The notes under the pieces were generated by a model. The model made no database searches. It was not told the origin of the DNA and was given only the letters and a program-made list of their open reading frames with translations. This document shows, in pieces, positions 2,209 to 41,612 of a stretch of 64,000 nt of DNA. The stretch covers positions 1 through 64,000 of the forward strand of contig NZ_JHWJ01000004.1 in the NCBI RefSeq assembly GCF_000687555.1, given 5' to 3'. The DNA comes from [Clostridium] aerotolerans DSM 5434 (GTDB lineage: Bacteria > Bacillota > Clostridia > Lachnospirales > Lachnospiraceae). Numbering within the stretch: position 1 is the stretch's first letter; each line of letters starts with the position of its first letter. The position numbers and the translations under genes are program-made.

Positions 2209-2231
2209 GGGCCTATATAAGGAGGTAGAAC

Positions 2232-18597: not shown

Positions 18598-18636
18598 ACG
18601 GGGGACAAGGAAGTCCCCGTCACAATCCAAGGAGGT
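18598..18636 (+). promoter_or_regulatory. Predicted CsrA-binding leader of flagellin mRNA
   Basis: ACGGGGGAC (18598-18606) and GTCCCCGT (18613-18620) form a hairpin with one extra G. Its loop presents AGGA, and ACAAGGAAGT matches the CsrA consensus core ACARGGAUGU at nine of ten positions. A second GGA lies in the Shine-Dalgarno site CCAAGGAGG (18628-18636), 22 bases downstream. This two-site layout, one upstream hairpin plus the SD, is what CsrA uses to repress flagellin (hag) in Bacillus. No csrA or fliW gene is in the window. Confidence 0.7.
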
Positions 18637-18643
18637 TTATATT

Positions 18644-24110: not shown

Positions 24111-25406
24111 ATGCAGGATATGGAAAAGTGCTATGGAACAAAATCAAAATCATATAAAAATATCGTATTATATGGGACTGGCTATGGAGCAGAATATATT
24201 TTTCCCTATTTTGAGACACGGCAGATGCTATCACAAATATATGCTGTTGTGGATAGAGATGATAGCCCGATGATAGGAATGGATTTTCATGGATATAAAG
24301 TAAAAAAACTATCAGATGTTTTGGAGCACACTGATGTTATAATGATTGTTTCAAAAGATTATTGGCAGATTATATCCGAGCGTGTTCGCAGGCTGCTTGA
24401 GAAGAAGAATATTCATATTCCTGTTATAGAAGTGTTTAATGAGGAGGCTTTATATAAATCCAGGGAAATTAATGTCACATATGTGGATAACAAGATAAAA
24501 GAAATATTAAAAGAAAATTTAATTCCACATTTCTATATATTGTGTGTTGAAAGCATGGGAGATGTTATAGCATGTGAACCAATAGCAAGAACCTTAAAAA
24601 TAAATGTCCCAAATTCTCGGGTGACATGGATAGTAAAGCAAATGTATTTAGAAATAGTAAAATATAATCCTTTTGTTGATGAAGTTTTAGAGGTTTCGTG
24701 CCTATCTGAAGCCAGTGATTTTTGCAATAGTCTAAAACAAGCAAATAGTGTTGTTATTAATTGTCATTTTAATAGACGGGCATGTTCAAAAACTAAAAAA
24801 GTACATTGGAATGATATTAATCCGATGATAAATGAAAATACATACTATAATTATGGGTCTTTATTAGAGAGCTTTTCTTTAATAGCAGGTATGAAAAAAA
24901 TATCGGATGAACCATATTTTTATGAGAGTGGAAAATCTGAAAATCCCATTGAAAGAGGAAAAAGATATATTGTAGTTCATTGTAAATCATCAGAGTCATG
25001 CAGAGACTGGCAATGTAATAAGTGGAATGAACTGGTACACCGAGTGGTAAGCGAGGGGTATTATGTGGTAGAGATTGGCTTAGAGCCTATTATTACCAAT
25101 GAATCAGAGCGATATATTGACTGTACAAACATCCATGATATACAAATTATTGCACAAGTAATAAAGGGCGCTGATATTTTTGTTAGCGGTGATAGTGGAT
25201 TTGCCCATATTGCAAATTGCTATCGAAAGGAGGCTATATTGCTTATGGGGAAATACAGGGATTTTAATGCACCTATGCCATATACGGGGTATTATGCACT
25301 AGAGAAAGAAAGTAATATTATGTATGCAAATGGTAGCAGTGTACATAGTTTGGAAGTAGATCAAGTATATACACAGGTAATTAAGAAATTACCGCATTAT
25401 TTATAA
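24111..25406 (+). CDS. GT9 (heptosyltransferase-like) glycosyltransferase with N-terminal Rossmann-like domain
   Basis: 431 aa. Residues about 15-120 form the island's recurrent Rossmann-like domain (IVLYGTGYGAEYIF then AVVDRDD). Residues about 135-431 look like the ADP-heptose:LPS heptosyltransferase (GT9) family: an ESMGDVIACEPIARTL block near the start and VSGDSGFAHIANCYRK near the end, the usual nucleotide-sugar-binding GDSG.xH motif. GT9 enzymes usually take ADP-heptose, and an HldE-like gene lies two genes downstream. Probably a cytoplasmic transferase; the actual sugar is inferred. Confidence 0.78.
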   Translation: MQDMEKCYGTKSKSYKNIVLYGTGYGAEYIFPYFETRQMLSQIYAVVDRDDSPMIGMDFHGYKVKKLSDVLEHTDVIMIVSKDYWQIISERVRRLLEKKNIHIPVIEVFNEEALYKSREINVTYVDNKIKEILKENLIPHFYILCVESMGDVIACEPIARTLKINVPNSRVTWIVKQMYLEIVKYNPFVDEVLEVSCLSEASDFCNSLKQANSVVINCHFNRRACSKTKKVHWNDINPMINENTYYNYGSLLESFSLIAGMKKISDEPYFYESGKSENPIERGKRYIVVHCKSSESCRDWQCNKWNELVHRVVSEGYYVVEIGLEPIITNESERYIDCTNIHDIQIIAQVIKGADIFVSGDSGFAHIANCYRKEAILLMGKYRDFNAPMPYTGYYALEKESNIMYANGSSVHSLEVDQVYTQVIKKLPHYL

Positions 25407-25447
25407 TGATTAGAAAATAAAATACAAGGATTTTATAGGAGAAAAAT

Positions 25448-26527
25448 ATGATTCCAAGCCAACTTCAAAGAAATGTGGTTCGCACAGATACACCGGCAGT
25501 ATATGCTCACTACATTGTAACAACAAATTCACTTTATCCACTGGCTCTTGTTTGTGATGAAAAAGATAGACTTATAGGTGTAATAGGTAGCGGAGAGATC
25601 AATCCTATTAAAAATGATCTTATATATCAAAATTGTGGAGAAATTTGTAACTCAAATTTTTGCTTTTTAGAAAATGGAAGTGAGGCTTCTATTTATAGTA
25701 AAGCAAGGAATATATTTGCAGAAAAACAGTTAATTACTTTGCCTATTATTGATGAAAATAAAATGCCAGTTAGGCTTTTTGGTAAATGGCAAGCATTTTT
25801 TAGAGAAAGTTATAAAGACTTACCATATTTCTTTTATGCGCATGGGTTGCTGTCTGCTGCGAAGTATGCAAAAAAGCAAGGGTATAATCGTATCAGTACT
25901 ATTGAATTTGGGGTTGCTGGTGGACGAGGATTGATTCACATGGAACTTTATGCAAGAGAAATATCCCGCTTGGCTAATATCGAAATTGATGTGTACGGTT
26001 TTGACTCAGGAAAAGGACTGTATTCACCTAGAGACTACCGTGATTGCCCTCAGGAATGGATAGAAGGGGATTTTAAAATGAATATTAATGGCCTTCAGAG
26101 CCAGTTATATAAAGCGAAACTTGTGATCGGGGATATTTGTGAAAGTACAAAGACATTTTTAGACAGATTTAATCCGGCACCTATAGCATTTATTTCTGTT
26201 GATGTTGATCATTATACACCTACAACAGCCATTCTTGATATGCTTTTGCAAGATCACAAATATTATGTTCCAGTTGTGACAATGTATTTTGATGATGTTC
26301 TTGATACGATGGAATTTCAGGGGGAAACTCTTGCAATTAAAGAATTTAATGCAAGGAATGAGACCATAAAAATATCACCAGAACATACTCGATTTGATGA
26401 AATATGGATGCACTCAGAAAGCAGTATAAATGACTGGAAAAATATTCATCTTTCTGCAATGAAATGGTGTAGCAGATTTGAACACCCTTTATATACAACA
26501 AAAAGAACTTCTAATGAGATTTTGTAA
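25448..26527 (+). CDS. SAM-dependent methyltransferase with N-terminal CBS-like domain
   Basis: 359 aa. The N-terminal 120 residues look like a CBS pair (PLALVCDEKDRLIGVIGSGE, then LITLPIIDENKMPVRLFGKW), the type fused to sugar nucleotidyltransferases. The rest is a class I methyltransferase-like fold: IEFGVAGGRGLIHMELYA near residues 153-170 is the SAM-binding Gly motif, followed by IDVYGFDSGKGL and SVDVDHYTPT. Fusion of a CBS module to a methyltransferase is unusual and may make the enzyme sensitive to a nucleotide. Likely O-methylates a sugar of the glycan; target inferred. Start behind TAGGAGAAAAAT. Confidence 0.72.
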   Translation: MIPSQLQRNVVRTDTPAVYAHYIVTTNSLYPLALVCDEKDRLIGVIGSGEINPIKNDLIYQNCGEICNSNFCFLENGSEASIYSKARNIFAEKQLITLPIIDENKMPVRLFGKWQAFFRESYKDLPYFFYAHGLLSAAKYAKKQGYNRISTIEFGVAGGRGLIHMELYAREISRLANIEIDVYGFDSGKGLYSPRDYRDCPQEWIEGDFKMNINGLQSQLYKAKLVIGDICESTKTFLDRFNPAPIAFISVDVDHYTPTTAILDMLLQDHKYYVPVVTMYFDDVLDTMEFQGETLAIKEFNARNETIKISPEHTRFDEIWMHSESSINDWKNIHLSAMKWCSRFEHPLYTTKRTSNEIL

Positions 26528-26597
26528 TCAGGTTTAGACCATGCATATGTTAAATTTTAATGCTAGTATGTTGCGTAATTGTATAGGGAGACTAAAG

Positions 26598-28037
26598 ATG
26601 AATATGAACGAGTATATGGATAATGTGAAGGGAGTCAAATGTCTTGTGATTGGAGACATTATTTTAGATGAGTATATATCCGGCATTGTCAATCGGATTT
26701 CACCTGAAGCGCCTATTCCTGTAATGCATATAGATAGAAAGTGGCATATACTCGGAGGGGCTGCGAATGTAGCGTGCAACATAGCCGGCTGTGGAATTGA
26801 GACTGTCCTATGCGGAGTGTTAGGGGAAGACTTCAATGCAGAAAAAGTAATAAAGGGTTTAAAAGAAAAAGAGATTGAATTTTGTGGTCTTAAATTAAAA
26901 GAAAGAATAACAACAACTAAAACTCGTATTGTTGGACCAAACCAGCAAATAGTTCGATTGGATGAGGAAATAACTGATGTGATTTCTTTAAGTGAAGAAG
27001 AAATCTTGTTTCGGGATATTATGAAATGCCTGTCCAAAGTAAAAGTATTAGTTATTTCGGACTATAATAAAGGTGTATGTACAGAAACTTTTTGCAGAAG
27101 AATCATTCAAGAGGCAAATAAACGTGGCATTTTTGTTATAGTAGATCCAAAGACGAAGGACTGGTCAAAGTACTCTCATGCTGACCTTATCACTCCAAAT
27201 TTTAAAGAGTATTGTGAGGCTGTAGGAATGGAGCTATCGAATAATGAACAGGAAATATGTCAGAGCGGAAAGCATATCTTTTCTAAATTTTACCTAGGAG
27301 GTATACTAGTGACTCGTTCACAATATGGTATGACATATCTTTATAGTGACTTACACTGTTTTTCCTGCACAACCAAAGCTCGGGAAGTTTATGATGTATC
27401 AGGTGCCGGTGATACTGTGATAGCTGTAATTGCTGCATTTTTGTCAGCGGGTTATCCTTTGGAGAAGGCTATAGAGGTTTCTAATTTTGCAGCCGCTATT
27501 TCAGTTGGGAAAAAAGGGACATATGTTGTATCTATTAATGAAATATCTGATGTAATTGAAGAAAGGGCCATGAATTTACACAGAAAAATTGTTTCATGGG
27601 CTGAAATTGAAAATACAGTGAAGCAGTGGAAAGAGATGGGAGATAAGATTGTTTTTACAAATGGGTGCTTTGATATCCTTCATCGAGGACACGTAGAATA
27701 CTTGAATTTAGCCAGAAAACAGGGAGATCATTTAATCGTTGGTTTAAACACAGACAGGTCGATAAAGGCTTTAAAGGGTGACATGCGCCCTGTTAATAAT
27801 CAGGAAGATAGGGCTTTATTGCTTTCTTCACTCTCTTTTGTGGACAAGGTAGTGCTGTTTGATGAAGTAACTCCCTATGACTTAATAAAAATGATAAAAC
27901 CAGACAAATTAATAAAAGGTGGAGATTATAAGGAATGTAATGTGGTTGGAAGAGAATTCGCAAATGAAGTTATAATTGTGCCTATTGTGGAAGGGTACTC
28001 AACGACAAATATTATTTTAAAAAAAACAAATATTTAA
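26598..28037 (+). CDS. hldE: HldE-like bifunctional heptose-7-phosphate kinase / heptose-1-phosphate adenylyltransferase
   Basis: 479 aa, matching the length of HldE/RfaE. The N-terminal PfkB-type kinase (about 1-325) has LGGAANVACNIAG and the anion-hole motif DVSGAGDT. The C-terminal nucleotidyltransferase (about 345-479) has FTNGCFDILHRGHVEY with the HxGH motif and VEGYSTTNII near the end. It should make ADP-heptose from D-glycero-manno-heptose-7-P together with a GmhB phosphatase. An ATG at 26541 is in frame, but GGGAG lies eight bases before 26598, which also gives the family length. No gmhA, gmhB or hldD is in the window. Confidence 0.88.
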   Translation: MNMNEYMDNVKGVKCLVIGDIILDEYISGIVNRISPEAPIPVMHIDRKWHILGGAANVACNIAGCGIETVLCGVLGEDFNAEKVIKGLKEKEIEFCGLKLKERITTTKTRIVGPNQQIVRLDEEITDVISLSEEEILFRDIMKCLSKVKVLVISDYNKGVCTETFCRRIIQEANKRGIFVIVDPKTKDWSKYSHADLITPNFKEYCEAVGMELSNNEQEICQSGKHIFSKFYLGGILVTRSQYGMTYLYSDLHCFSCTTKAREVYDVSGAGDTVIAVIAAFLSAGYPLEKAIEVSNFAAAISVGKKGTYVVSINEISDVIEERAMNLHRKIVSWAEIENTVKQWKEMGDKIVFTNGCFDILHRGHVEYLNLARKQGDHLIVGLNTDRSIKALKGDMRPVNNQEDRALLLSSLSFVDKVVLFDEVTPYDLIKMIKPDKLIKGGDYKECNVVGREFANEVIIVPIVEGYSTTNIILKKTNI

Positions 28038-28140
28038 GTTGCTGATATTAGCAATAATACATTTTTATGTGGAGAATTTAGAGAAATAAGTGGTAGTATA
28101 TTAAGGGGGATCTTATATAGACAATAGAAGGAGTAAGTTT

Positions 28141-29268
28141 ATGAAATCATTAAATTTAGAAAAATATTATATATGGGGGACTGGATATAGAGCAGAGCAA
28201 ATAAATCAATACTATGCTGAACAACTAAATGATATTAACATAATAGGATATATTGATAATAATCCGGCTAAATGGAAAGATTATTTTTTCGGAAAGAAGA
28301 TATATTCACCAGAAATTTTAATAGAAGATAAAGATGCTTATATTATAATAATTACAAAGTTTTCGCAAGAAATAGTAAAGCAGATAATCGAACAATATCC
28401 ATGGTACAAAGAGAGAATTGTAGAAAATGAAAATAATATATTTTTTAAACGATTGCAGATTTTATTTAGATATGAAGATTCTGAGGAAAAAGAAATTCAA
28501 GATATTGTGAAGTATCTTAAATATCATCAGCTTCAATTGTTTAACTATCCTTTTGTAGAAAAATACAATACTGAGGATTCTCATATAGAATATGATCAGG
28601 ATAAAAAACTTTATTATGCATTATATTGTGATAAGAAGATGTACTTTCCAAGGTCATTTCAAGATGAAAAATCAGTAAGAGAGTATTTTCGGCTAGTATG
28701 TATTCATCAAGATACCGACTCTCCGCATAGATACCTGACGGATAAATTTAATGTTCCTGATAATGCTGTAGTAGTTGATGGTGGGGTGGCAGAAGGTGAT
28801 TTTGCATTATCAATTATTGACAGAGTAAAAAAAATATACTTATTTGAGCCGGATGGTGAATGGGTAAAAGCTTTAAAACATACTTTTGAACCCTATAAAG
28901 AAAAGATTGTGATAATTAATAAATGCTTATCAAACTACATTAAAGGTGATACTACCACATTAGATGAAATATTAGATGGGTCAAATGTGGATTTTATAAA
29001 AATGGACATTGAAGGAGAAGAATATTATGCGATGCAAGGTGCACTAAAAAGTATTACAGCAACGGAAAATTTAAGAGTTGTTGTGTGTACCTATCATCAA
29101 GAATTTGCATACGATGCAATTAAGAAACTGTTAGAAGATTTGCATTTTAAAACAGAAACTTCTACGGGATATATATGGTGTCCTGCTAGTTTTAATCCCA
29201 TGAGACCTCCTGTTTTGCGAAAATGTCTTATTAGAGCAGAAAAGAATAGCAATAAAAGTATTAATTAA
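28141..29268 (+). CDS. FkbM-family methyltransferase with N-terminal Rossmann-like domain
   Basis: 375 aa. Residues 8-110 are the recurrent Rossmann-like domain (IWGTGYRAEQI, then GYIDNNPAKW). A helical linker follows, then an FkbM-type methyltransferase from about 205: VVVDGGVAEGDFALSII holds the SAM site and FIKMDIEGEEYYAMQGA (near 286-302) is the hallmark metal/acceptor motif. FkbM enzymes O-methylate sugars or hydroxyls, so this probably caps or decorates the glycan. Start ATG 28141 behind AGAAGGAG. Confidence 0.82.
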   Translation: MKSLNLEKYYIWGTGYRAEQINQYYAEQLNDINIIGYIDNNPAKWKDYFFGKKIYSPEILIEDKDAYIIIITKFSQEIVKQIIEQYPWYKERIVENENNIFFKRLQILFRYEDSEEKEIQDIVKYLKYHQLQLFNYPFVEKYNTEDSHIEYDQDKKLYYALYCDKKMYFPRSFQDEKSVREYFRLVCIHQDTDSPHRYLTDKFNVPDNAVVVDGGVAEGDFALSIIDRVKKIYLFEPDGEWVKALKHTFEPYKEKIVIINKCLSNYIKGDTTTLDEILDGSNVDFIKMDIEGEEYYAMQGALKSITATENLRVVVCTYHQEFAYDAIKKLLEDLHFKTETSTGYIWCPASFNPMRPPVLRKCLIRAEKNSNKSIN

Positions 29269-29379
29269 AATCTTAACCAATAAGAGGTTGGAGAATAATA
29301 ATGCAAAGATTATGCAAATAAAAGTTTATATAATCTACTATAGATATGTTTTATTAAATGTGGAGGAGTCACGTAATAT

Positions 29380-30468
29380 ATGATAAAAGTGGTAATATGG
29401 GGAACTGGCAATGTAGGGAAAAGTATGATTAAAAAATTGAGCAATGATGTAGAAATTATTGCTTTTATTGACAATTATTCAACGCTTGAAAGTTTTTATG
29501 GAAAGCCAGTGTATAGACCAGAATATGCTATGAATCTGAAATACGATTTTCTTTTAATATGCTCAATTTACTCAGATGAAATTTATAAACAGGCTAAGGA
29601 GATCGGAATAGATTCATCAAAAATAGTTATAGGAAATCCAGGTACCATTGAAAAGTATCTAGTTTTTCAACATTTCTTTTTTGACAGAAAACTGGTGGAA
29701 CTTGAAAAAAAAAGTCATTTGATTCAAATGCTAATAACAGGGATATCATACCATGATGATGGTATTTCATCAAAAAAATTAAACGTTAATGCTTTTAAGT
29801 TTGCGAATAGGAGTCAAGATATTTACTGTGATTTTGAAATGGTAAAATATTTTTTGAAAAATTATCAAATGAGTTTGCTAAAATATGCGATAATTGGTTT
29901 AAATTATTATAGTTTTGAATATGATCTTTCAAAAAGTAGTGGTTCATGGCAGATGTTGAGATATTATCCATATATTAGCAGTATGCATAATTTGATCAGC
30001 CATCAGTATCAGGAGGAATATTATGCAAAAGAAATCAAAAATTTAGAGAGAATTCGCATTCCTAAAGGTATATTTAACTATGATTTAAGAAGATTTGAAT
30101 TAAATGATTTAGAGGGAGAAAATGCAGCAAATGCTGATTTTTATAAAAACCACCCTGCGACCGTATTTGAAAACAAAAGGATATTAAAAGAATATGTGAA
30201 ACTTTTATTGGATAATAAAATAAAACCAATATTTGTAATAATGCCTGTAACTAAGTATTATTCAAAATATTGTTCCTCCTCTATCAAAAAAAAGTTTTAT
30301 GATAATTTAAACGAAGTAATCGAGAACAATAGCAATATACAAGTATTGGACTACTTTGACAAAATTGATTATCCAGATTCTTATTATTATCATATAAACC
30401 ATATGAATAAAAAAGGAGCAGTGGCTTTCACAAAGCAATTAAATAGGGATATTATCTGGGACAATTAA
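29380..30468 (+). CDS. Rossmann-like domain fused to an SGNH/DltD-like domain
   Basis: 362 aa. Residues 1-95 are the recurrent Rossmann-like domain (VVIWGTGNVGKSM, then AFIDNYST). The rest is not clearly recognised, but it has an ITGISYHDDG block near residue 118 and a C-terminal DSYYYHINHMNKKGA (about 332-347) that fits the Asp..His end of DltD/AlgX-like SGNH proteins, which move or remove acyl groups. There is no signal peptide, so it would act in the cytoplasm, unlike DltD. An acyl or amide modification of the sugar is a guess. Confidence 0.6.
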   Translation: MIKVVIWGTGNVGKSMIKKLSNDVEIIAFIDNYSTLESFYGKPVYRPEYAMNLKYDFLLICSIYSDEIYKQAKEIGIDSSKIVIGNPGTIEKYLVFQHFFFDRKLVELEKKSHLIQMLITGISYHDDGISSKKLNVNAFKFANRSQDIYCDFEMVKYFLKNYQMSLLKYAIIGLNYYSFEYDLSKSSGSWQMLRYYPYISSMHNLISHQYQEEYYAKEIKNLERIRIPKGIFNYDLRRFELNDLEGENAANADFYKNHPATVFENKRILKEYVKLLLDNKIKPIFVIMPVTKYYSKYCSSSIKKKFYDNLNEVIENNSNIQVLDYFDKIDYPDSYYYHINHMNKKGAVAFTKQLNRDIIWDN

Positions 30469-30685
30469 ATCCCTTTAGAATAAATTTTTAACAAGATAAG
30501 AGGAAGAAATTGTTGGATCTGTTTATGATGAGCAGATATACGACCTCCACATATATAACTAATGCTACTAATAATGTAATAGCTGTTCATTCTTGAGCAA
30601 TAGAAGAGAGCTTCAAGTTTTTTATTGTTGAATTAAAAAATAGTAAAAAGATATTTAAAGTATAAAGTTATTAAGCAATACAATA

Positions 30686-30748
30686 GATATATGCAGCATC
30701 TTGTAGATTTTACTATCATGAGAGCACCTGTTTTGGAAGAGGGACTAT
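30686..30748 (+). pseudogene. Remnant of an FkbM-type methyltransferase C-terminus
   Basis: The frame ending at the TGA 30746-30748 reads RYMQHLVDFTIMRAPVLEEGL. This resembles the C-terminal GYIWCPASFNPMRPPVLRKCL of the FkbM gene at 28141. About 35 of 50 aligned bases agree. The rest of the gap 30469-30685 has no open frame. Likely a scar of a lost paralogue. Confidence 0.5.
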
Positions 30749-31883
30749 GAGAAAAGAGAAAAAAATGAAGAGTAAAGTTTTGGCAATTTACTTACCGCAA
30801 TTTCATTCTATTCCAGAAAACGACATGTGGTGGGGAAAAGGTTTTACAGAGTGGACAAATGTTAGACGTGGAAGAAGCTATTACCCAGGCCATTATCAAC
30901 CTAGAATTCCTTATCAAAATAATTATTATGACTTATCTGATTTAAAGGTTTTAGAAGGCCATGTACGACTTGCTCAAGCCTATAAGATACAAGGGTTTGC
31001 TTTCTATCATTATTATTTTGCGGGTAAAAAGGTATTAGAAGGTCCTATAGAGGATTATAGAGATCACTCGAGAGAAACGTTTCCTTACTGCTTGATTTGG
31101 GCAAATCAATCATGGACGCGTACATGGTATAGAGCAGATGCAGGAAAACAAATCCTCCTACAACAAGTATATGGCAATGAAGAGGAATGGAGAGAACATT
31201 TTAATTATTTACTGAAATTTTTTAAGGATGAAAGATACATAAAGGTTGGAAATAAACCAATATACATCATATACTTGCCTCAGGATATTAAGCACAGAAA
31301 GGAAATGTTTGATTTATGGAATCGACTAGCTATTGAATGTGGATTTGATGGAATCTTTCTAATAGCAATGAATACTGGCTGGGGAGTGGATAAATCAAAA
31401 AATTTATATGATGGTTATATGAATTTTGAACCGATGCATACAATCTGCGGGGATACATCTTATCGGCAACAAGTGCTACGTTATAAAGAAGAACATATAG
31501 ATAATATCAATAAGGAAAAATCTTTATTTAAAAATAAGATATATGCCCAAAATACATTTTCTTATCCATATTTATGTAAACAAATAGAAGCTCTTTCAAT
31601 GGAATACGATAATAAAAAAACATATTTGGGTGCTTTCCCAGGATGGGATAATACAGCTAGAAAAGATGAAGCTGGTTGGATTGTTCCTGGAAGTACCCCA
31701 AAAAGATTTGGGAAACATATTGAAAAGATGCTCCATTTTTCGGAAAAGTTAGGAAATGAATATCTTTTTTTGAATGCATGGAATGAATGGTCAGAAGGTG
31801 CTTATATTGAACCAGATCAAAAATATGGATATGGATATTTAAAAGAATTAAGAAGAAGTATCATGAAATATGAAAAAAATTAA
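30747..31883 (+). CDS. WbsX-like / GH99-like glycan biosynthesis protein
   Basis: 378 aa, of the family found in O-antigen and capsule clusters (WbsX, related to GH99-type folds). Recognisable wording: AIYLPQFHSIPENDMWWGKGFTEWTNV at the start, YLPQDIKH, FPGWDNTARK, and the closing LNAWNEWSEGAYIEPD. No signal peptide. Family members are thought to be glycosyltransferases or glycosidases acting during polysaccharide assembly; the reaction is not established. ATG 30747 overlaps the stop of the FkbM remnant; ATG 30765 is an alternative start. The end overlaps an upstream ATG of the next gene. Confidence 0.82.
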   Translation: MRKEKKMKSKVLAIYLPQFHSIPENDMWWGKGFTEWTNVRRGRSYYPGHYQPRIPYQNNYYDLSDLKVLEGHVRLAQAYKIQGFAFYHYYFAGKKVLEGPIEDYRDHSRETFPYCLIWANQSWTRTWYRADAGKQILLQQVYGNEEEWREHFNYLLKFFKDERYIKVGNKPIYIIYLPQDIKHRKEMFDLWNRLAIECGFDGIFLIAMNTGWGVDKSKNLYDGYMNFEPMHTICGDTSYRQQVLRYKEEHIDNINKEKSLFKNKIYAQNTFSYPYLCKQIEALSMEYDNKKTYLGAFPGWDNTARKDEAGWIVPGSTPKRFGKHIEKMLHFSEKLGNEYLFLNAWNEWSEGAYIEPDQKYGYGYLKELRRSIMKYEKN

Positions 31884-31893
31884 AGGAGAAGTC

Positions 31894-32382
31894 GTGAAAA
31901 AAGAAAAAATTATAATGGAATTTTTTATAACGGGGGTTATTGGATTAATTATAGGATTTGCTACGATTTGGAAAATATTTCGTGAAGTGATGAAACGGGA
32001 TAATCAGGAAAAGGAAAAAACAATAAGTTACTATCGAATCCTGAATCAGTGGTTGTCCCTAAAACAGAGTAAAAAATCAGTTGTAGAGTTTTTTGAAAAA
32101 AATAATTACAGTACAGTAGCAATATATGGTATGAAGGAAATGGGTGAACGATTATTAGAAGAGTTAGAAGGTACAGGGATAGAAGTTAAATGCGTGATTG
32201 ACCAAAACCCTGTTGACATTTGTAAAAGCATTACCGTTATACATCCAGATAATTCAATACCGCATGTTGATGTAGTTGTTGTAACAGCTTCTTATTATTT
32301 TAGTGAAATAAAAAATAAGCTAATAGGAAAAGTGTGTGGGGATATTGTATCAATTGATGATGTGGTCTATAGTAAATATTAA
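31894..32382 (+). CDS. Membrane-anchored stand-alone Rossmann-like domain protein
   Basis: 162 aa from GTG 31894, chosen because AAAGGAG lies about six bases upstream; an in-frame ATG at 31870 lies inside the previous gene without ribosome binding site. One hydrophobic helix near the N-terminus (FFITGVIGLIIGFATIW) is followed by a charged linker and the recurrent Rossmann-like domain alone (VAIYGMKEMGERLLEEL, then CVIDQNP). The Gly-rich loop is degenerate. It has no attached enzyme, so it may be a membrane tether or partner for other proteins sharing the domain. Function unknown. Confidence 0.72.
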   Translation: MKKEKIIMEFFITGVIGLIIGFATIWKIFREVMKRDNQEKEKTISYYRILNQWLSLKQSKKSVVEFFEKNNYSTVAIYGMKEMGERLLEELEGTGIEVKCVIDQNPVDICKSITVIHPDNSIPHVDVVVVTASYYFSEIKNKLIGKVCGDIVSIDDVVYSKY

Positions 32383-32438
32383 TTTTATGTACTGAGCTGG
32401 ATTAAGAGAAATAAATTACAAAAAAAGGGAGATAGAAC

Positions 32439-33458
32439 ATGAAGAAAAAAATTATATTGTGGGGATGTGGTGAACGTGCAAAAAGGTATATAGAATATGA
32501 GTATTTTAAAGAATGCGACATAGTGGCAGTAATTGATACTTATCATAAAGGAGAAACGTTTGAAGGGTACCAGGTATATGGACCAGAAGATTTATCTTTA
32601 CTTTTAAGCCAAGGTGACTTTCTGGTGATTTCCAGTTTATATTTTAGTGATATATATAATACATATCTTGAGTTGGGTTTTCCTAAAGAAAAAGTCATTT
32701 TTACAGATATTATACAAGAGAGAATATTTGAGAATGATCTGGATCAGGTCAAAAATCTATCCCCTCAGTTATATAAAGATATACTATTAAATCAATATAG
32801 ATTAATACAAATGAATGAGAAGGATTTCTTTGATAATGATAAATTAGTAGGCGTAGGACGATATTCAAAGATTGAATATATGAACGATTATTTTCGATAT
32901 AGATCCTTTGAGTTTATGGCTGAAGAATTATTAGAAGATGGTATGGTTGGAGATGTAGCAGAGTTTGGGGTTTTTAGAGGCGTATTTGCAAGACTAATTA
33001 ATGAAAAATTTAAAGATAAGAAGTTATTTTTATTTGATACATTTGAAGGGTTTGATAAAATTGAGAGTGAGAAAGAAGCTGCACTAGGAAGATGTGATAA
33101 TGTATTTATCGATTATCATATGAAAACTTCAGAAGAACAATTAATGGCTCAATTACCTTACCCTGATAAATGTGTAATTTGTAAAGGTCTGTTTCCAGAT
33201 TCTATATCAAAAGAAGCATTTGATACCAGATATGTTTTTGTATCCATTGATGTAGACTTTGAAGATTCAATTTTTGCTGGAATTGATTTTTTCTATCCAA
33301 GGCTAGTTAATGGGGGCGTGATTTTTTTGCATGATTACAACTCTGCTTATCTGCATGGTGTGAGAAATGCAGTTAAGCGTTATGAGGATTATAATAATTT
33401 GAAACTAAAAAAGGTACCATTTGCAGATCGTGCAGGGACTTTAGTTATTATAAAATAA
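32439..33458 (+). CDS. TylF/macrocin-O-methyltransferase-like protein with N-terminal Rossmann-like domain
   Basis: 339 aa. Residues 1-90 are the recurrent Rossmann-like domain (IILWGCGERAKRYI, then AVIDTYHKGETF). From about 160 it matches the TylF/MycF methyltransferase family: AEFGVFRGVFARLINEKF (SAM loop near 174), LFDTFEGFD, SIDVDFEDSIFAGIDFFYPRL, and GGVIFLHDYNSA, which carries metal-binding Asp residues. These enzymes O-methylate deoxysugars with Mg2+. Start ATG 32439 behind AAAGGGAG. Confidence 0.83.
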   Translation: MKKKIILWGCGERAKRYIEYEYFKECDIVAVIDTYHKGETFEGYQVYGPEDLSLLLSQGDFLVISSLYFSDIYNTYLELGFPKEKVIFTDIIQERIFENDLDQVKNLSPQLYKDILLNQYRLIQMNEKDFFDNDKLVGVGRYSKIEYMNDYFRYRSFEFMAEELLEDGMVGDVAEFGVFRGVFARLINEKFKDKKLFLFDTFEGFDKIESEKEAALGRCDNVFIDYHMKTSEEQLMAQLPYPDKCVICKGLFPDSISKEAFDTRYVFVSIDVDFEDSIFAGIDFFYPRLVNGGVIFLHDYNSAYLHGVRNAVKRYEDYNNLKLKKVPFADRAGTLVIIK

Positions 33459-33478
33459 ATGTTCGGAGGCAGTAGTTT

Positions 33479-34639
33479 GTGAGATGGATGCTCAGCGTGA
33501 TAATTACAGTTTATAATGTAGAGAAGTATTTGGAGCAATGTATTGAAAGTGTTCTAAATCAAAATTATAAAGATCTTGAAATAATAATTGTTAACGATGG
33601 TTCGCAAGATAACAGTAAAATGCTGTGTAACCAATTTGCATCTAAAGATTCAAGAATAAGGGTTATTCATAAAGAGAATGAAGGCGTAATAATGGCAAGG
33701 TATGATGGCGTTAGGATTGCAAAAGGTGCTTATGTGACATTTGTCGATGGAGATGATTGGATAAAGGTCGATATGTATGAGCAGCTGATGCAAAAGTTAA
33801 TGAATTATGATGCTGAAATGATTGCATCTGGCATTATTAGATATCACTCACAAGATGAAAAAAAACTAGAGTCTAATAATGTTGAAGCAGGATATTACGA
33901 TAGCTTGCAAATTAATAATCGAATACTGCCTAAAATGCTTTGGGATTTTAATGAGCAAAGCCATGGAATAGATCCTTCTTTAAGCAATAAAATTTTTGTC
34001 AAGGAAAAGATCTATGAAACAATGAAGCAATTAATTCAAAAAAATTACATCTTTCATTATGGTGAAGATATGGCAATATTATATCCTTATATTCTAAAGA
34101 TTAAGTCGCTGATAATTGTCGATGAACAGTATTATTTCCATAGGCAAAGAGAACGGAATATATTGGCTAGCTATCTTGCTGATTTGGAATATTTTGAAAA
34201 GTTATTTAATCTTTACCAGTATTTGAGAGAAGTATTCTCAGGAGATTCACATGGATTGGAAAAGCAATTAGAATATTTTTATATGTATTCTGTAGACTTG
34301 AGAAAGAAGTATTATAATGATGTTGCAGAAAAAATAAAGTATATGTTTCCTTTTGATAAAGTGAGTAAGGGGAGCAGGGTTATCCTTTATGGCGCCGGAC
34401 TTGTGGGAACTTCTTATTATAATCAGTTACAAAAAATTAATTATTGTAAAATAGTTTTATGGGTAGACAGAAATAGTCACATATATAAAAATAAATTGTA
34501 TGAAGTGAAAGATGTAACTGATATTTTTAATGAGAAATATGATTATATTGTTTTATGTACTTCTGCAAAAAATATTTCCAGTCAAATTAAGGAGGATTTA
34601 ACAAAAAAAGGGATTAATGAAACTAAAATTGTGTATTAA
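33479..34639 (+). CDS. GT2 glycosyltransferase with C-terminal Rossmann-like domain
   Basis: 386 aa from GTG 33479 behind GGAGG (nine-base spacing). The GT2 domain starts SVIITVYNVEKYLEQCIESV and has the nucleotide-binding NDGSQDNS and the metal motif VDGDDW. At the C-terminus (about 297-386) it carries the recurrent Rossmann-like domain, here behind rather than in front of the enzyme (VILYGAGLVGTSYY, then WVDRNSHI). This is the only protein of the set with the domain at that end. Predicted cytoplasmic transferase; donor and acceptor unknown. Confidence 0.84.
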   Translation: MRWMLSVIITVYNVEKYLEQCIESVLNQNYKDLEIIIVNDGSQDNSKMLCNQFASKDSRIRVIHKENEGVIMARYDGVRIAKGAYVTFVDGDDWIKVDMYEQLMQKLMNYDAEMIASGIIRYHSQDEKKLESNNVEAGYYDSLQINNRILPKMLWDFNEQSHGIDPSLSNKIFVKEKIYETMKQLIQKNYIFHYGEDMAILYPYILKIKSLIIVDEQYYFHRQRERNILASYLADLEYFEKLFNLYQYLREVFSGDSHGLEKQLEYFYMYSVDLRKKYYNDVAEKIKYMFPFDKVSKGSRVILYGAGLVGTSYYNQLQKINYCKIVLWVDRNSHIYKNKLYEVKDVTDIFNEKYDYIVLCTSAKNISSQIKEDLTKKGINETKIVY

Positions 34640-34675
34640 CAAATGCTTGAATATGAGCAGTATTAGGAGAAACCA

Positions 34676-35611
34676 ATGCCTAAGATATCAGTAATTATGC
34701 CGTTGTATAATGCGGATTTATTTGTTGAAAAAGCCATAAAATCTATATTGATGCAGTCATATAAAGATTTTGAACTTTTGCTTATTGATGATTGTTCTAC
34801 TGATGATACTATGGAAATAGTTAGCGGAATAAAAGACTCAAGAATTAAAATTGTAAGAAACGAGAAAAATGAGGGAATTGCATTTTCGAGGAATCGGGGA
34901 CTTTCGTTGGCGGAGGGTCAATATATAGCCTTAATGGATGATGATGACTTGACGGTTCCTGACCGTTTTGATATTCAGGTTCAATATTTGGAATTATATA
35001 ATGAAATGGATGTAGTGGGTGGTCAATTTTGTGCTATAGATGAAAATGATCGAGTAATATGGACTTGCAAAGAACGATTAACTAATCCTAAATACATAAG
35101 GGCAGACATGATGCTTTATGATTCCATTGCCAATGGAAGTGCTATGATTAGAAACGATTTTCTTAGAAAAAACCAGATAAAATACCAAGACGGGTGTTTA
35201 GGCATGGAAGATTACCGCTTTTGGATTGAATGCTCAGCTCTTGGAAATGTAACAAACTTAGACCATATTTTTCTGTATTGGAGAAATAGTGAAAGTAATG
35301 AGTCCTCTAAGGTAAAGAAATGGAAGTACAAACAACGTGCTGAAAAATATGGGGAGTTGCAGAAATATGCATTTGAGTTAAATGGGTATTCTCTATTTGA
35401 AGAGGAGTATGGAATTATTAATAAGATGTTTCCAGAAATACTTTCTTCTGTGATTATAAATGTAGAAGACATGAAAAAATTATATGATGTTTTTTTAAAA
35501 GTGATACAGCAATCCAAAGATATTAGAGCGGAAAATGCAAATGAAATAGCTATTATGTGTAGAAAAAGGTTTTCAAACCGCCTGGAATTTACAAATCTCT
35601 GGAACTTTTAA
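34676..35611 (+). CDS. GT2 family glycosyltransferase
   Basis: 311 aa, plain GT2 (GT-A) enzyme without the extra domain: SVIMPLYNADLFVEKAIKSI, the nucleotide-binding DDCSTDDT, NEGIAFSRNRGL, the acidic metal site LMDDDDLTVPDR and the acceptor-side GMEDYRFW. The last matches the ED motif of inverting GT2 enzymes. No membrane helices, so probably a soluble transferase working on a protein-bound or nucleotide-bound acceptor. Preceded by AGGAGAAACCA. Confidence 0.86.
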   Translation: MPKISVIMPLYNADLFVEKAIKSILMQSYKDFELLLIDDCSTDDTMEIVSGIKDSRIKIVRNEKNEGIAFSRNRGLSLAEGQYIALMDDDDLTVPDRFDIQVQYLELYNEMDVVGGQFCAIDENDRVIWTCKERLTNPKYIRADMMLYDSIANGSAMIRNDFLRKNQIKYQDGCLGMEDYRFWIECSALGNVTNLDHIFLYWRNSESNESSKVKKWKYKQRAEKYGELQKYAFELNGYSLFEEEYGIINKMFPEILSSVIINVEDMKKLYDVFLKVIQQSKDIRAENANEIAIMCRKRFSNRLEFTNLWNF

Positions 35612-35689
35612 ATAAGCTTTAATTTTTTGTACAAAAAAGTAGTTATGAATGTTAGGAAAATGGTTTGACTCAAACGGGAGGTGATGGAA

Positions 35690-36604
35690 TTGAATATCGT
35701 ATTCGGAACAGGAAATACAGCAGAAAAGCTACTTAGATTTGAAGAAAAGCTTAATATAGGTTTTTTTATAGATAATTCAATCACAAAACAAGGAAATATA
35801 TTTCATGGAAAGAAAGTAAAAAGTCCAGATGAGATTTTAACAACTGAATTTGAGTATTTGATAATTGCCTCTGAACAATATTATGAAGAAATAAACAGAC
35901 AATGTGTAGAGCAATTAAAGATAGCAATAGAAAAAATCATTATTTTTCATGATAATGATTACGATAAAAGCATTGTAACTACGGTAGATATAAATAAAAT
36001 AGTTCCATATACAGAAATTATTATTCCATGGAAAAAGGCAAGGATAAATATAGAGGTCCCGCTTCATGGTGAGACATATAAAGCAAAGGAAAGAAGAATT
36101 AGAGAGGGATTTTTTGATAGATACTGTAATGGAGAGGGGCTTGATATAGGATTTGGAAATGATCTTGTATTGCCAGATTGTTATGGTTGGGAATTTTGCA
36201 ATGGTAATGCACAGTATTTAAGAGAAGTCGAAGATGAAAGTTTTGACTATGTCCATTCATCACACTGTATAGAGCATATGGTAGATGTAAGAATTGCTTT
36301 AAAGAACTGGTTTAGAGTAGTAAAAAAAGAAGGATATTTATTATTATTATTGCCTCATAGGGAGTTATATGAGAAAAGAAAAACCTTGCCTTCGAAATGG
36401 AATCCAGATCATAAACATATGTTTCTTATAGGAAAGAGAGAACTGCCTGATACACTTGATATCATAGAAGAGATACGTGAAGGTTTAGAAACTGGGTATC
36501 AAATAATATATGCTAAAGAATGTTCAGAGGGGTGGTCGATTCCTGATCCTAATACGCACAGTAATGGAGAGTACTCAATAGAGATAGTTATTAAAAAGTT
36601 ATAA
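35690..36604 (+). CDS. Class I methyltransferase (type 11-like) with N-terminal Rossmann-like domain
   Basis: 304 aa. GTG 35681 and ATG 35684 lie inside or next to the full Shine-Dalgarno GGGAGGTGA (35677-35685), so TTG 35690, about seven bases after GGAGG, is the likely start; the protein then begins MNIVFGTGNTAEK like its relatives. Residues 1-95 are the recurrent Rossmann-like domain (GFFIDNSITKQ). The second half is a methyltransferase-like fold: GLDIGFGNDL near 150, FDYVHSSHCIEHM near 188, then NWFRVVKKEGYLLLLLPH. Likely a sugar methyltransferase; target unknown. Confidence 0.75.
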   Translation: MNIVFGTGNTAEKLLRFEEKLNIGFFIDNSITKQGNIFHGKKVKSPDEILTTEFEYLIIASEQYYEEINRQCVEQLKIAIEKIIIFHDNDYDKSIVTTVDINKIVPYTEIIIPWKKARINIEVPLHGETYKAKERRIREGFFDRYCNGEGLDIGFGNDLVLPDCYGWEFCNGNAQYLREVEDESFDYVHSSHCIEHMVDVRIALKNWFRVVKKEGYLLLLLPHRELYEKRKTLPSKWNPDHKHMFLIGKRELPDTLDIIEEIREGLETGYQIIYAKECSEGWSIPDPNTHSNGEYSIEIVIKKL

Positions 36605-36681
36605 TCATAATTGTTTTAAGGTAAATAATCTCAGGTAAAAGGGCTTTAAATCTCTGGGATATTTTAAAAGGAGGATAAATC

Positions 36682-38073
36682 ATGAAATTTCTTCTTTTTG
36701 GGACAGGAGATTATTATGAGCGTTATAAAAAATGGTTTGATAGTAAGGAGGTACTAGCATTATTAGATAATTCTGAAACAAAACAGAATACAATAATTGA
36801 TGGAATCCAAGTATTATTACCCAAAGATGGTGTGGAACAGACATTTGATGTCATTGTAATTTTAAGTTTTTATGTAAAAGAAATGAAAAAGCAACTTCTG
36901 GATTTAGGTGTATCAGAGGACAAGATATACCATTTCTATGATCTTCATAAGTTAATAGAACCTAACAAATTGACTAAATCTGTTAGATATTTTAAGGATG
37001 CAGAGCGAATAGTAAAATCAGATGGTCCAAAGGAAAAAATACTGCTTTTATCTCAAGATATGACATTGGGTGGACCTGCCATTGCCTTACTTAATATGGC
37101 AGAAATTCTTCTGAAACATGGCTATGATGTTATATATGCTTCAATGATTGATGGTCCTTTGCGGGAAAGAATAATATCCTATGGTATTTCTGTTATTGTC
37201 GATGAAAACATGCAAGTAGGAACAATGCACGATGTTAATTGGATAGAAAAATTTTCATTACTGTTTTGTAATACAATTAACTTTCATGTATTTTTATCAA
37301 AACGCGATATTAATAAGAAAACTATTTGGTGGTTGCATGATTCATCATTTTTTTACAGTGGGGTTGACAAGGCTGTTTTGCAGAACATAAATAGAATGGG
37401 TTTAAATGTATATTCAGTGGGGCCCGTTCCCAAGAATGCTATTCAGACACTAATTCCAGACATGCCAGTGAATGAGTTGCTGTATGGAGTTGCAGATACA
37501 GTAAATTGTATAAAGAAAACTAAAAATGACAGGATATGTTTTGTAACCATTGGATATATAGAGAAACATAAAGGACAAGATATTTTGCTCCAGGCAATTA
37601 AGCTGATGCCACAAAAAATTCGAAAAAAAGCTGTATTTTATTTAGTTGGACAAAATACTTCCATTATGGCAGAGAAATTAAAAAAGGAAATAAAAAAGAT
37701 TCCAGAAATAATAATAACAGGTACATTAACCAGAGATGGAATAGATGAAATATTACATAGTGCAGATGTTTTAATTTGTCCATCACGTCAAGACTCCATG
37801 CCCACAGTAGCTGCAGAAGCAATGATGCATAGCGTTCCTTGTATTTTATCTGATGCTACTGGAACTGCTGCATATATACAGAAGGAAATAGATGGATTTA
37901 TATTTCGCAGCGAAGATGCATGTGATTTACTAAAGAAGATGGAATGGTGTATAGAAAATCCGGACAAGTTAAGCGAGTTTGGTATAAAATCCAGGTTAAT
38001 TTATGAGAAGTTTTTTTCTATGAAAACATTTGAAAAGAACTTATTGAATGTTATAAACGGTATTTCTAAGTGA
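36682..38073 (+). CDS. GT4 family glycosyltransferase with N-terminal Rossmann-like domain
   Basis: 463 aa. Residues 1-95 carry the recurrent Rossmann-like domain (FLLFGTGDYYERY, then ALLDNSETKQ). From about 112 a GT-B fold of family GT4 follows: LSQDMTLGGPAIALLNMAEIL, then ICFVTIGYIEKHKGQDILLQAI and the E-x7-E region SRQDSMPTVAAEAMMHSVPC that holds the donor nucleotide sugar. Retaining soluble transferase by family. Start ATG 36682 behind AAAGGAGGATAAATC. Confidence 0.86.
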   Translation: MKFLLFGTGDYYERYKKWFDSKEVLALLDNSETKQNTIIDGIQVLLPKDGVEQTFDVIVILSFYVKEMKKQLLDLGVSEDKIYHFYDLHKLIEPNKLTKSVRYFKDAERIVKSDGPKEKILLLSQDMTLGGPAIALLNMAEILLKHGYDVIYASMIDGPLRERIISYGISVIVDENMQVGTMHDVNWIEKFSLLFCNTINFHVFLSKRDINKKTIWWLHDSSFFYSGVDKAVLQNINRMGLNVYSVGPVPKNAIQTLIPDMPVNELLYGVADTVNCIKKTKNDRICFVTIGYIEKHKGQDILLQAIKLMPQKIRKKAVFYLVGQNTSIMAEKLKKEIKKIPEIIITGTLTRDGIDEILHSADVLICPSRQDSMPTVAAEAMMHSVPCILSDATGTAAYIQKEIDGFIFRSEDACDLLKKMEWCIENPDKLSEFGIKSRLIYEKFFSMKTFEKNLLNVINGISK

Positions 38074-38112
38074 GGCAACAATAATTAGCAAAAGCAGAAA
38101 AGAGAGACGATT

Positions 38113-40170
38113 ATGTCTGACTTAATGAATAAGCTCCAGGGATATAAAGATTGTAAAATTGCAATTTATGGTCTAAGTGTAGAGACTGAAAATGTATTGT
38201 CTGAGATAGGAGATAATTTTCCAATAATTGGATTATTGGATGGATACAAACAAAATGGTATTCTTTATGGAAAGAATATTATTTCATTGGAACAAGCGAT
38301 TGCGTGTAAAGTGGGTCTCATTTTAGTTGCAGCCAGGCCTGGGTCCTGTAAGGCAATTGCAAAACGCATTGGTAAGGTGTGTTTGGAAAATAAGATAGAC
38401 TTGTTAGATATTAGAGGCAAAAATTTATGTGATAAGCAGAAAGTCATTTATGATTTTAGCAATACAATTGGATTTACCAAAAAGCAGCTAGAATTAAAAA
38501 TTGATGAATATGAAGTTTTGAGTTTAGATCTATTTGATACTCTAATTATGCGTCAAATTTTATTTCCTTCAGATGTTTTTGAATTAGTCGATTATAAATT
38601 AAGAAGCCAAGGGATTTTCATCGAAAATTTTAGTGCAAAACGTTTGGACAGTGAGAAATACCTATCTCAATTTTCTGCGCCCTATCTTAAAGAGATTTAT
38701 ACATACATGTTAGAAAAACATTCAATAAACAATATAAGTCCAGAAGATTTGGCAGATATTGAATGGGAGATTGATTATGAACTTGTTGTTCCGCGACAAG
38801 AAATGTGTGAATTACTAAATGCTTTATGGAAACAGAAAAAAGAGGTGTATATTGTATCTGATACATTTTATACAAATGAGCAGATTATAAAAATATTAGA
38901 AAAGTGCAATATTTATTTTTATACTGGTATTGTATTATCATGTGAATATAGTACAGGGAAAAAGCAGAATCTTTTTGAAGAATTAAAATGTATTCTTGGT
39001 AGTAAGAGGTGTCTCCATATTGGAGATGATATTGTTGCTGATATAGAGAGTGCAGAAAAAAACAATATTTCTGCTTTTCATATATATAGTGGTTTGGAAT
39101 TACTTGAAAAGCTGGGATATTTAGGTTTATGGGATTATTTAGAAACAATTTCAGATAAAATTCGAATAGGAATGTTTACAGCAAAAATTTTCAATAGCCC
39201 ATTTCAATTTGAAAGTAAAAACAATAAGGTAAGTGTTGATTGTGCAAAGGAAATAGGTTATATGTTTTTTGCCCCTATGATTACAGATTTTGTTATTTGG
39301 TTCCACAATCAGGTGAATCTCTACGCTATAGAAAATATTTGGTTCTGCGCAAGAGACGGTTATCTTATTAAAAAGTTGTATGATGAGTTTACTGGTAATG
39401 ATTCTTCTATTTATTTTTTTACTTCTCGTATAGCAGCAATTCGTGCAGGAATTAGAAATGATGATGATATCCGTTATGTAGAGAAGATGAAATATAGTGG
39501 GACTCTAAAGGAACAATTAATAGATCGGTTTGGTATTTTAACTAATGAAAACGAAGCAGATCACTATGGGATTATGTCATATAAAAAAGAGATTTTAAAA
39601 AAATCCTCAGATGACAAAAGAAATTATCAGAATTATATAAGTAAATTGAATATAAAAAACGGTGATGTTGCTTTTTTTGATTTTGTAGCAAAAGGAACCA
39701 GTCAGATGTTCATTGAGCATTTAATAGAGAATCATTTAAAGGGTTTATATTTTCTGCAGTTGGAAAAGGAAAATATGAGTGATAAAGGGTTGGATATTGT
39801 TTCCTTCTATGAAACAAAAGAAACGAGTAATAGTGCTATTTATGATAATTACTATATTCTGGAGGCTGTTTTGACCTCTCAAGAGGCATCTATCTTAGAA
39901 TTTGATGATAATGGTAACCCTTGTTATGCTAATGAAACAAGAAAAGAAAATGATATGAAAACATTTCAAAGTGTTCAAGATGGTATTATAGATTATTTTA
40001 GAACATATTTAAAAATATGTCCGCAAAATGAGTATATAATAAATAAAAAACTGGACGAAATATTTTTGATGCTTATTCATCATATCCAAGTATTAGATAA
40101 AGGCTTTATGGAATTGAGGGTTGAAGACCCGTTTTTCAATCGTGCGACTGATATTATTGACTTAATATAG
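38113..40170 (+). CDS. HAD-superfamily protein with N-terminal Rossmann-like domain (COG5610-like)
   Basis: 685 aa in three parts. Residues 10-105: recurrent Rossmann-like domain, degenerate Gly loop (IAIYGLSVETENVL, then GLLDGYKQNG). Residues about 130-345: HAD phosphatase core with nucleophile motif LSLDLFDTL (Asp138 or neighbour), motif II in VSDTFYT and motif IV HIGDDIVADIESA. Residues about 375-685: a domain regularly attached to such HADs in polysaccharide clusters, starting WFCARDGYLIKKLYDE and SRIAAIRAG; its function is not known. It may dephosphorylate a sugar-phosphate intermediate, possibly filling the GmhB step, but that is speculation. Confidence 0.75.
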   Translation: MSDLMNKLQGYKDCKIAIYGLSVETENVLSEIGDNFPIIGLLDGYKQNGILYGKNIISLEQAIACKVGLILVAARPGSCKAIAKRIGKVCLENKIDLLDIRGKNLCDKQKVIYDFSNTIGFTKKQLELKIDEYEVLSLDLFDTLIMRQILFPSDVFELVDYKLRSQGIFIENFSAKRLDSEKYLSQFSAPYLKEIYTYMLEKHSINNISPEDLADIEWEIDYELVVPRQEMCELLNALWKQKKEVYIVSDTFYTNEQIIKILEKCNIYFYTGIVLSCEYSTGKKQNLFEELKCILGSKRCLHIGDDIVADIESAEKNNISAFHIYSGLELLEKLGYLGLWDYLETISDKIRIGMFTAKIFNSPFQFESKNNKVSVDCAKEIGYMFFAPMITDFVIWFHNQVNLYAIENIWFCARDGYLIKKLYDEFTGNDSSIYFFTSRIAAIRAGIRNDDDIRYVEKMKYSGTLKEQLIDRFGILTNENEADHYGIMSYKKEILKKSSDDKRNYQNYISKLNIKNGDVAFFDFVAKGTSQMFIEHLIENHLKGLYFLQLEKENMSDKGLDIVSFYETKETSNSAIYDNYYILEAVLTSQEASILEFDDNGNPCYANETRKENDMKTFQSVQDGIIDYFRTYLKICPQNEYIINKKLDEIFLMLIHHIQVLDKGFMELRVEDPFFNRATDIIDLI

Positions 40171-40203: not shown

Positions 40204-40866
40204 ATGGATATTAAATTAACAGCGTCTATGATGTGTGCTAATTATGGAAATTTAGAAAAGGAAGTAAAAGATTTAGAAGAGGGAGGAATTGATTCTTTTC
40301 ATATTGATATTATGGATGGAAGGTATGTTCCGAATTTTGCCATGTCACTAAATGATATGGCGTATATAGCAGGAGCAACTACAAAGCCATTAGATGTTCA
40401 TCTTATGATAGAGAATCCTAACAATCGCATTGATTTATTTATTGAACAGTTAAGAAAAGGAGATACTGTTTATATTCATCCTGAAGCAGAGTATCACCCT
40501 TCTACTACCCTCCAGAGAATTATTGATGCTGGATTAATTCCGGGAATTGCTATTAATCCGGGAACCAGTGTGGAGACGGTAATGGAAATGCTTCGTATTG
40601 TTAAAAAAGTGTTGGTCATGTCAGTAAATCCGGGTAATGCAGGGCAGATGTATCTCCCATACGTAGGTAAGAAGGTTATAAAGCTACTTTCATTGAAAGA
40701 GGATATGGGGTTTGAAATATACTGGGATGGAGCCTGTAGTGCAGATAAAATTCAGCAGTTTGCACCAAAAGGTGTAGAAGGGTTTGTATTAGGTACTACA
40801 CTTCTTTTTGGAAAAGAAAAGAACTATGGAGAAATACTGAAGGATATTAGAGAATTACATTTTTAA
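40204..40866 (+). CDS. Ribulose-phosphate 3-epimerase family protein
   Basis: 220 aa TIM-barrel epimerase. Recognisable: HIDIMDGRYVPNF (catalytic Asp and metal His), DVHLMIENP, GIAINPGTSVE and MSVNPGNAGQ. The terminal phosphate-loop aspartate is kept in a changed context (YWDGACSADKI instead of the common VDGGI), so this is not the standard housekeeping Rpe. It is followed by a cytidylyltransferase and a polyol-phosphate dehydrogenase, suggesting it supplies an unusual ketose phosphate (for example xylulose-5-P) for a CDP-alditol pathway. Confidence 0.82.
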   Translation: MDIKLTASMMCANYGNLEKEVKDLEEGGIDSFHIDIMDGRYVPNFAMSLNDMAYIAGATTKPLDVHLMIENPNNRIDLFIEQLRKGDTVYIHPEAEYHPSTTLQRIIDAGLIPGIAINPGTSVETVMEMLRIVKKVLVMSVNPGNAGQMYLPYVGKKVIKLLSLKEDMGFEIYWDGACSADKIQQFAPKGVEGFVLGTTLLFGKEKNYGEILKDIRELHF

Positions 40867-40895
40867 TATCTAGGAATAAGATGGAGACCACATAA

Positions 40896-41582: not shown

Positions 41583-41612
41583 CTTTAATAATACCGAAGA
41601 AAGGATAAGTAT

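Follow-up and report, generated by a model that had tools for sequence, protein, structure and literature searches.

The first 64,000 nucleotides of contig NZ_JHWJ01000004.1 from [Clostridium] aerotolerans DSM 5434 (the window) contain a cluster of glycan genes in which a domain of approximately 85–90 residues (the module) is carried by nine open reading frames (ORFs) between positions 24111 and 40170, as identified using the alignment and the ORF list. Taking family, fold, and island jointly, the nine domains are very probably one family of small Rossmann-like accessory domains of the nucleotide-binding type within a flagellin-glycan island. Judged from sequence, the shared module points to a putative common control or handling step in the sugar-coating of the flagellum. 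The preferred explanation is that the modules bind a nucleotide and serve as a sensor or a substrate handle, for which a probability of about 0.5 is estimated. The module is N-terminal to GT9, FkbM, SGNH/DltD-like, TylF, type-11 methyltransferase, GT4, and HAD domains and C-terminal to a GT2 domain. The ninth copy is found in a 170-residue protein with one hydrophobic stretch. The copies are listed below with the expectation values (E) obtained using a 55-row profile.

24153–24431 (+), copy 1, N-terminal in the GT9 protein 24111–25406; E 1.6e-11
28159–28398 (+), copy 2, N-terminal in the FkbM methyltransferase 28141–29268; E 3e-17
29380–29628 (+), copy 3, N-terminal in the SGNH/DltD-like protein 29380–30468, modelled alone; PF22674 27.1 bits; E 2.9e-23
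32107–32370 (+), copy 4, in the 170-residue protein 31870–32382, which consists of a hydrophobic stretch (hydropathy 2.16), a linker, and the module; E 6.4e-13
32445–32699 (+), copy 5, N-terminal in the TylF methyltransferase 32439–33458, modelled at full length; E 9.3e-23
34373–34636 (+), copy 6, C-terminal in the GT2 protein 33479–34639; E 6.9e-18
35687–35941 (+), copy 7, N-terminal in the type-11 methyltransferase 35681–36604; E 1.2e-18
36682–36930 (+), copy 8, N-terminal in the GT4 protein 36682–38073; E 2.2e-20
38152–38415 (+), copy 9, N-terminal in the HAD protein 38113–40170, with a degenerate glycine loop (GLS); E 6.2e-8

The alignment and the profile locate the nine domains where the initial annotation had placed them. 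Two gene starts differ slightly in the ORF list: the membrane-anchored protein begins at 31870 (previously 31894) and the type-11 methyltransferase at 35681 (previously 35690). The 55-row profile is the less circular of the two that were used, as its rows come from other genomes and include no window copies, but the window copies seeded their recruitment. Among the 247 stop-to-stop ORFs of the window this profile matches all nine copies, with E from 2.9e-23 to 6.2e-8, and the next match is a partial one at 2229–3188 (E 1.3e-4). No match was obtained with 20 × 247 shuffled ORFs. A chance resemblance of GxG motifs is therefore rejected. When the whole 4.73-Mb genome was searched using a nine-row profile, the nine island copies appeared as self-matches together with one clear additional match (7.4e-6) on contig 14, which Pfam identifies as a CapD-type dehydratase; the two remaining matches have E > 0.6.

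The claim of one shared domain family is thus upheld by the profile, and one fold is supported for the two copies that were modelled, the SGNH copy alone and the TylF protein at full length. Unrelated folds are rejected for the copies examined. In the structural comparison the modelled copies adopt the fold of the N-terminal domain of 2g6t, an uncharacterized protein from C. acetobutylicum whose structure was released in 2006; an island member resembling 2g6t has a DUF1919 partner. The catalytic part of the TylF model matches the sugar O-methyltransferases MycF, NovP, and SpnH. The corresponding Pfam family is PF22674 (C2185-like_N, gathering score 27 bits), a name to which 2g6t is probably tied, judging from the title of its entry and from what it matches. 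Within the window one copy of nine reaches the threshold with 27.1 bits, two score below it (23.4 and 18.2), and six are unmatched as whole proteins. Copy 3 scores 28.8 bits in the genome scan, and values of up to 54.7 bits are obtained in other islands.

Other relatives are known in different settings. The PglD_N domain (PF17836, gathering score 23.4) of the NeuD/PglD/PerB acetyltransferases is kin to the module, but none of the nine copies matches it, and the best score elsewhere among the scanned modules, 21.8, is below the cutoff. PglD_N has a fixed partner, a hexapeptide acetyltransferase. CoA_binding_3 (PF13727), the family of the N-terminal domains of WbaP and CapD, is likewise unmatched by the nine copies in Pfam, and is matched by the CapD-type protein on contig 14. 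The N-terminal domain of the CapD/PglF dehydratases is kin to the module. So is the accessory domain of WbaP, which lies within PF13727 and is part of a membrane enzyme, a large phosphoglycosyl transferase. The redox-sensing repressor Rex, with its domain for reduced nicotinamide adenine dinucleotide (NADH), is also kin, but it is a transcription factor, and Pfam detects no DNA-binding domain in the nine window proteins. The FkbM methyltransferase 2py6 from Methylobacillus contains a Rossmann-like stretch at residues 52–151, in a single protein. Searches of PHROGs and NCBIfam provided at most weak module matches, and a Protein Data Bank search with one protein provided none.

The GxGxx(G/A) loop is complete in six of the nine window copies, the aspartate after strand 2 is present in all nine, and G8 and D31 (reference-copy numbering) are invariant in their alignment. 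In the fetched loci both loop glycines are found in 232 of 254 modules and an aspartate or glutamate after strand 2 in 218 of 254. Polar positions beyond the loop and the acidic residue are little conserved across partners. A conserved loop and aspartate on a fast-evolving domain is the pattern of a putative ligand site.

The fetched loci contain 256 modules on 255 proteins, counting the CapD-type control and both of two identical loci, L080 and L081. The partners form 61 clusters, 34 of them with a single protein, and the N- or C-terminal place of the module is largely fixed within each. The alignment of modules from the first loci (A2) retained 64 of 82, leaving out near-identical copies, the CapD-type protein, and one copy crossing the fetch border. 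Of the 310 interior proteins in 24 loci selected for being rich in modules, 198 carry one, chiefly transferases and decorating enzymes. The partners include glycosyltransferases, methyltransferases, radical SAM enzymes, WbsX, DUF4422, and MptE-like proteins (the latter presumably of the Maf type), among others. The neighbours lacking the module include members of dehydratase/epimerase, cytidylyltransferase, and amidotransferase families. These assignments were obtained from a Pfam tally that covered 119 of the 175 non-redundant module proteins, without those of the last loci, and 88 of 93 module-lacking proteins, three that cross a fetch border and two minus-strand ORFs judged spurious having been removed. 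Two exceptional architectures were observed. A 749-residue protein (L059, 8570–10816) combines a weak methyltransferase-like part, a central module, and a cytidylyltransferase-like end; homologues occur in all seven of the other module-rich islands fetched from the same genus, and none with a module in the window. In L090 (16870–18561) two modules stand in tandem in one protein.

The absence of the module from precursor enzymes bears on an alternative in which a nucleotide-activated intermediate serves as the base for assembling the glycan, the module holding the nucleotide while the enzyme works at the sugar end. A search with a single query, the CapD of this genome, which has its own built-in domain, gave 10 further CapD-like dehydratase matches, and none of these has the module. 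Dehydratases are absent from the first 25 families tallied for the module proteins, which means that they number at most two there. The N-terminal domains of PglD/PerB-type acetyltransferases hold a sugar nucleotide in a similar manner, and the structural kin include PerB (4ea7, titled as a complex with coenzyme A (CoA) and guanosine diphosphate (GDP)-perosamine). VioB is a weak profile match (0.07), and one module protein, in genome G011, is a hexapeptide protein with a PglD_N match below threshold. This alternative is nonetheless quite unlikely, as 37 of 80 loci found via TylF relatives contain no module, the GT2 enzyme with TPR-like repeats beside the flagellin gene lacks one, and to our knowledge no flagellin glycan built on a nucleotide has been documented.

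The module recurs together with flagellin in other genomes. At least six module matches were obtained in 9 of 25 genomes of the same genus, the window genome included, and in all nine a flagellin gene lies no more than 13 kb from the cluster; a few weak partial matches, as well as some located outside the cluster, are among those counted. Among 150 genomes of the family the module (E ≤ 1e-10) is found in 44, with four or more modules in 21. Flagellin (E ≤ 1e-40) occurs in 39 of the 44 module genomes vs 37 of the 106 others (Fisher p 8e-10), and at 1e-12 in all 21 module-rich genomes. By eye, at least 19 of the 44 have a flagellin gene on the same contig and no more than 45 kb away. The genome-search counts are lower bounds, as first-look candidates were scored in part in many genomes (32 for the 150-genome sample and 24 in the other search). 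Several single matches in ORFs of 209–248 residues may be Rex, judging from their length. Among the 80 loci found via TylF relatives, 43 contain at least one module and 16 at least five, and the densest has 11 modules in 21 kb. The module would also allow flagellin glycosylation islands in Lachnospiraceae and their kin to be recognized by sequence.

The nucleotide-binding explanation builds on the single family, the fold of two copies, the loop and aspartate, the linkage to flagellin, the concentration on transfer and decorating enzymes, and the recurrence of the module. The modules are fused to what would be the glycosyl-, methyl-, and acyl-transfer enzymes of the flagellin glycosylation island. 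Each would bind a nucleotide common to the pathway, either a free byproduct such as uridine monophosphate (UMP), uridine diphosphate (UDP), or cytidine diphosphate (CDP) or the nucleotide moiety of an activated sugar. The bound nucleotide would tune or position the fused enzyme, and the late steps would answer to one signal. The roles of nucleotide sensor and nucleotide-sugar handle are suggested because the loop and aspartate are conserved and because the WbaP domain responds to uridine nucleotides. In excerpts of PMC10942596, uridine-nucleotide sensing is described for the WbaP accessory domain, which is stabilized by UMP, UDP, and uridine triphosphate (UTP), and WbaP is inhibited by UMP. 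Of the ligand-sensing function proposed in the initial annotation, the type of site and the existence of nucleotide-binding relatives are supported; that a nucleotide is bound at all, its identity, and an effect of its binding on enzyme regulation or substrate presentation are inferred.

Several observations weigh against nucleotide binding as the common role. The GT4 copy (GTGDYY) has no small third loop residue, and the HAD (GLS) and membrane-anchored (GMK) copies have no second loop glycine. In the fetched loci the third loop position is glycine, alanine, or serine in 175 of 254 modules, and the aspartate is missing from all seven modules of partner clusters 13 and 14. The structural ranking past 2g6t does not discriminate, with biliverdin reductase and succinyl-CoA synthetase at 10.8, the same value as WbaP and 3nkl, and dehydrogenases also match the module by profile. 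According to its authors, UMP may also act at the WbaP active site (PMC10942596, in the text available). The 88 module-lacking proteins include 10 of the GT2 and 6 of the GT-group-1 type, so the division between enzyme classes is not absolute. Flagellin occurs without any module match at E 0.001 in seven genomes of the same genus, which makes the island optional, and the flagellin association may arise in part from the common ancestry of motile lineages. The module also diverges faster than the enzymes to which it is fused, with 29% identity vs 48% for the catalytic part in TylF relatives (820 pairs) and 22% vs 35% in GT2 proteins (903 pairs). As it is weakly conserved outside the loop, the module could be tolerated ballast, an old fold spread by recombination in glycan islands and retained because it assists folding or solubility, with no common function. 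The degenerate loops in some partner families and the existence of partner-enzyme relatives without the module are consistent with this possibility. It is considered very unlikely given that both loop glycines are retained in 232 of 254 modules, which are distributed over 61 partner clusters, that the module is concentrated on certain enzyme classes, and that its terminal place is largely fixed within each cluster.

Alignment places the membrane-anchored copy in a family of small proteins that begin with a hydrophobic stretch, followed by a linker with a conserved tryptophan and then the module. Its members are the window protein and eight proteins in L069, L070, L071, L074, L075, L076 (two), and L086. 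The second loop glycine is missing from each of the nine aligned members, which keep the remainder of the signature; its loss also counts against a common nucleotide-binding role. The genes of WbsX (30747–31883) and the anchored protein (31870–32382) share 14 bases, read in different frames, and the same linker and module are fused to WbsX in other islands, which might reflect gene fission. The anchored protein is nonetheless treated as a family of its own, since it adjoins other genes in other loci.

This family raises the possibility that the modules are docking domains, binding each other to gather the late flagellin-glycosylation enzymes with the anchored copy as a base where present. This lead is considered less likely than not. 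It accords with the packing of up to 11 modules in one 21-kb locus, with the recurrence of the small anchored family (8 of the 150 family genomes, each with four or more modules, also encode it as small ORFs that include the N-terminal part), and with the WbsX fusions. The loss of one glycine with retention of the other signature residues is what a nonbinding scaffold might display, and the WbaP dimer contacts are mostly in the accessory domain (PMC10942596, in excerpts). Against docking, three of these eight family genomes encode a copy whose N-terminal stretch is only modestly hydrophobic (maximum 1.22 to 1.46), so that anchoring is uncertain there. Among the nine module-rich islands of the same genus, the fetched stretches contain the small anchored copy only in the window. 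Of 21 module-rich family genomes, 8 have an anchored copy, 11 have none (6 with no match and 5 with matches only inside long ORFs), and 2 are ambiguous (G312 and G338). The scarcity of the anchored copy makes a general hub unlikely, and a universal hub is disfavoured; the proposal in the initial annotation that the enzymes assemble on this copy is not sustained. Pairwise similarity is 0.212 within a locus vs 0.205 across loci and partners and 0.288 for the same partner cluster in different loci (values without a significance test); as the within-locus value is barely higher, there is no sign of a locus-wide docking code.

A combined scheme, considered unlikely, makes the module the adaptor shared by a cytosolic factory for flagellin glycans: through it most of the late enzymes would bind a shared nucleotide-linked intermediate or each other, and anchored copies lacking the second loop glycine would form a docking base in some islands. 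If the preferred explanation is right, the whole glycan pathway would be wired through one reused ligand-binding domain. This would also help to explain the domain common to the otherwise unrelated enzymes WbaP, PglF, and those of the island, which puzzled the WbaP authors (PMC10942596, in the portion available).

The initial annotation knew of no described system of this kind. This holds for mass reuse of the module in flagellin islands, on which no paper was found in the open-access literature. The term "Rossmann" is absent from the available main text of the flagellin-island papers on Geobacillus (PMC5109656) and Clostridium (PMC13317340). It does not hold for the domain itself, which has a Pfam entry and a relative solved in 2006, and a related domain common to WbaP and PglF-like dehydratases is already in print (PMC10942596, in excerpts). 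What is already known comprises the fold, its Pfam family, and the sensing of nucleotides by a relative; the scale of reuse across the late enzymes of flagellin islands appears to be new.

The genes without the module that surround the nine copies include those listed below.

16959–18302 (+), GT2 glycosyltransferase with TPR-like repeats, directly before the flagellin gene; Glycos_transf_2 2.7e-21, TPR_2 26.4 bits (cutoff 27)
18521–19474 (+), flagellin gene upstream of the island; Flagellin_N 1.9e-43 and Flagellin_C 3.9e-31 (Pfam)
21566–24073 (+), 835-residue protein with no confident Pfam match; phmmer E 1.6e-89 or better in eight islands of the same genus
30747–31883 (+), WbsX-type glycosyltransferase; Pfam 1.2e-117
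40204–42665 (+), three genes for a ribulose-phosphate 3-epimerase, an IspD-like cytidylyltransferase, and a zinc alcohol dehydrogenase; Pfam

Flagellin and glycan enzymes are side by side in the window and in related islands, the arrangement of a flagellin glycosylation island. Homologues of the GT2-TPR protein stand beside flagellin in genomes G002, G006, and G015, where the pair opens the island. This protein is likely a flagellin glycosyltransferase and is a candidate for the enzyme attaching the first sugar. The three genes at 40204–42665, a homologous set of which follows the module cluster in L069, would make CDP-ribitol or another CDP-alditol as a precursor. Besides the HldE-like, epimerase, IspD-like, and dehydrogenase proteins, the WbsX (30747), GT2 (34676), and GT2-TPR transferases and the 25448 protein lack the module, so the division between enzymes is not absolute in the window either.

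Two minor features were observed. The protein at 25448–26527 (+) has a weak CBS-like match at residues 11–49 (E 0.008, below the Pfam cutoff). CBS domains often bind adenine nucleotides, and this protein may have a further nucleotide-sensing front end. Between the flagellin gene and the island, the translation of 20074–20544 (−) resembles, by eye, a fragment of an IS3-type integrase core, a possible mark of island mobility.

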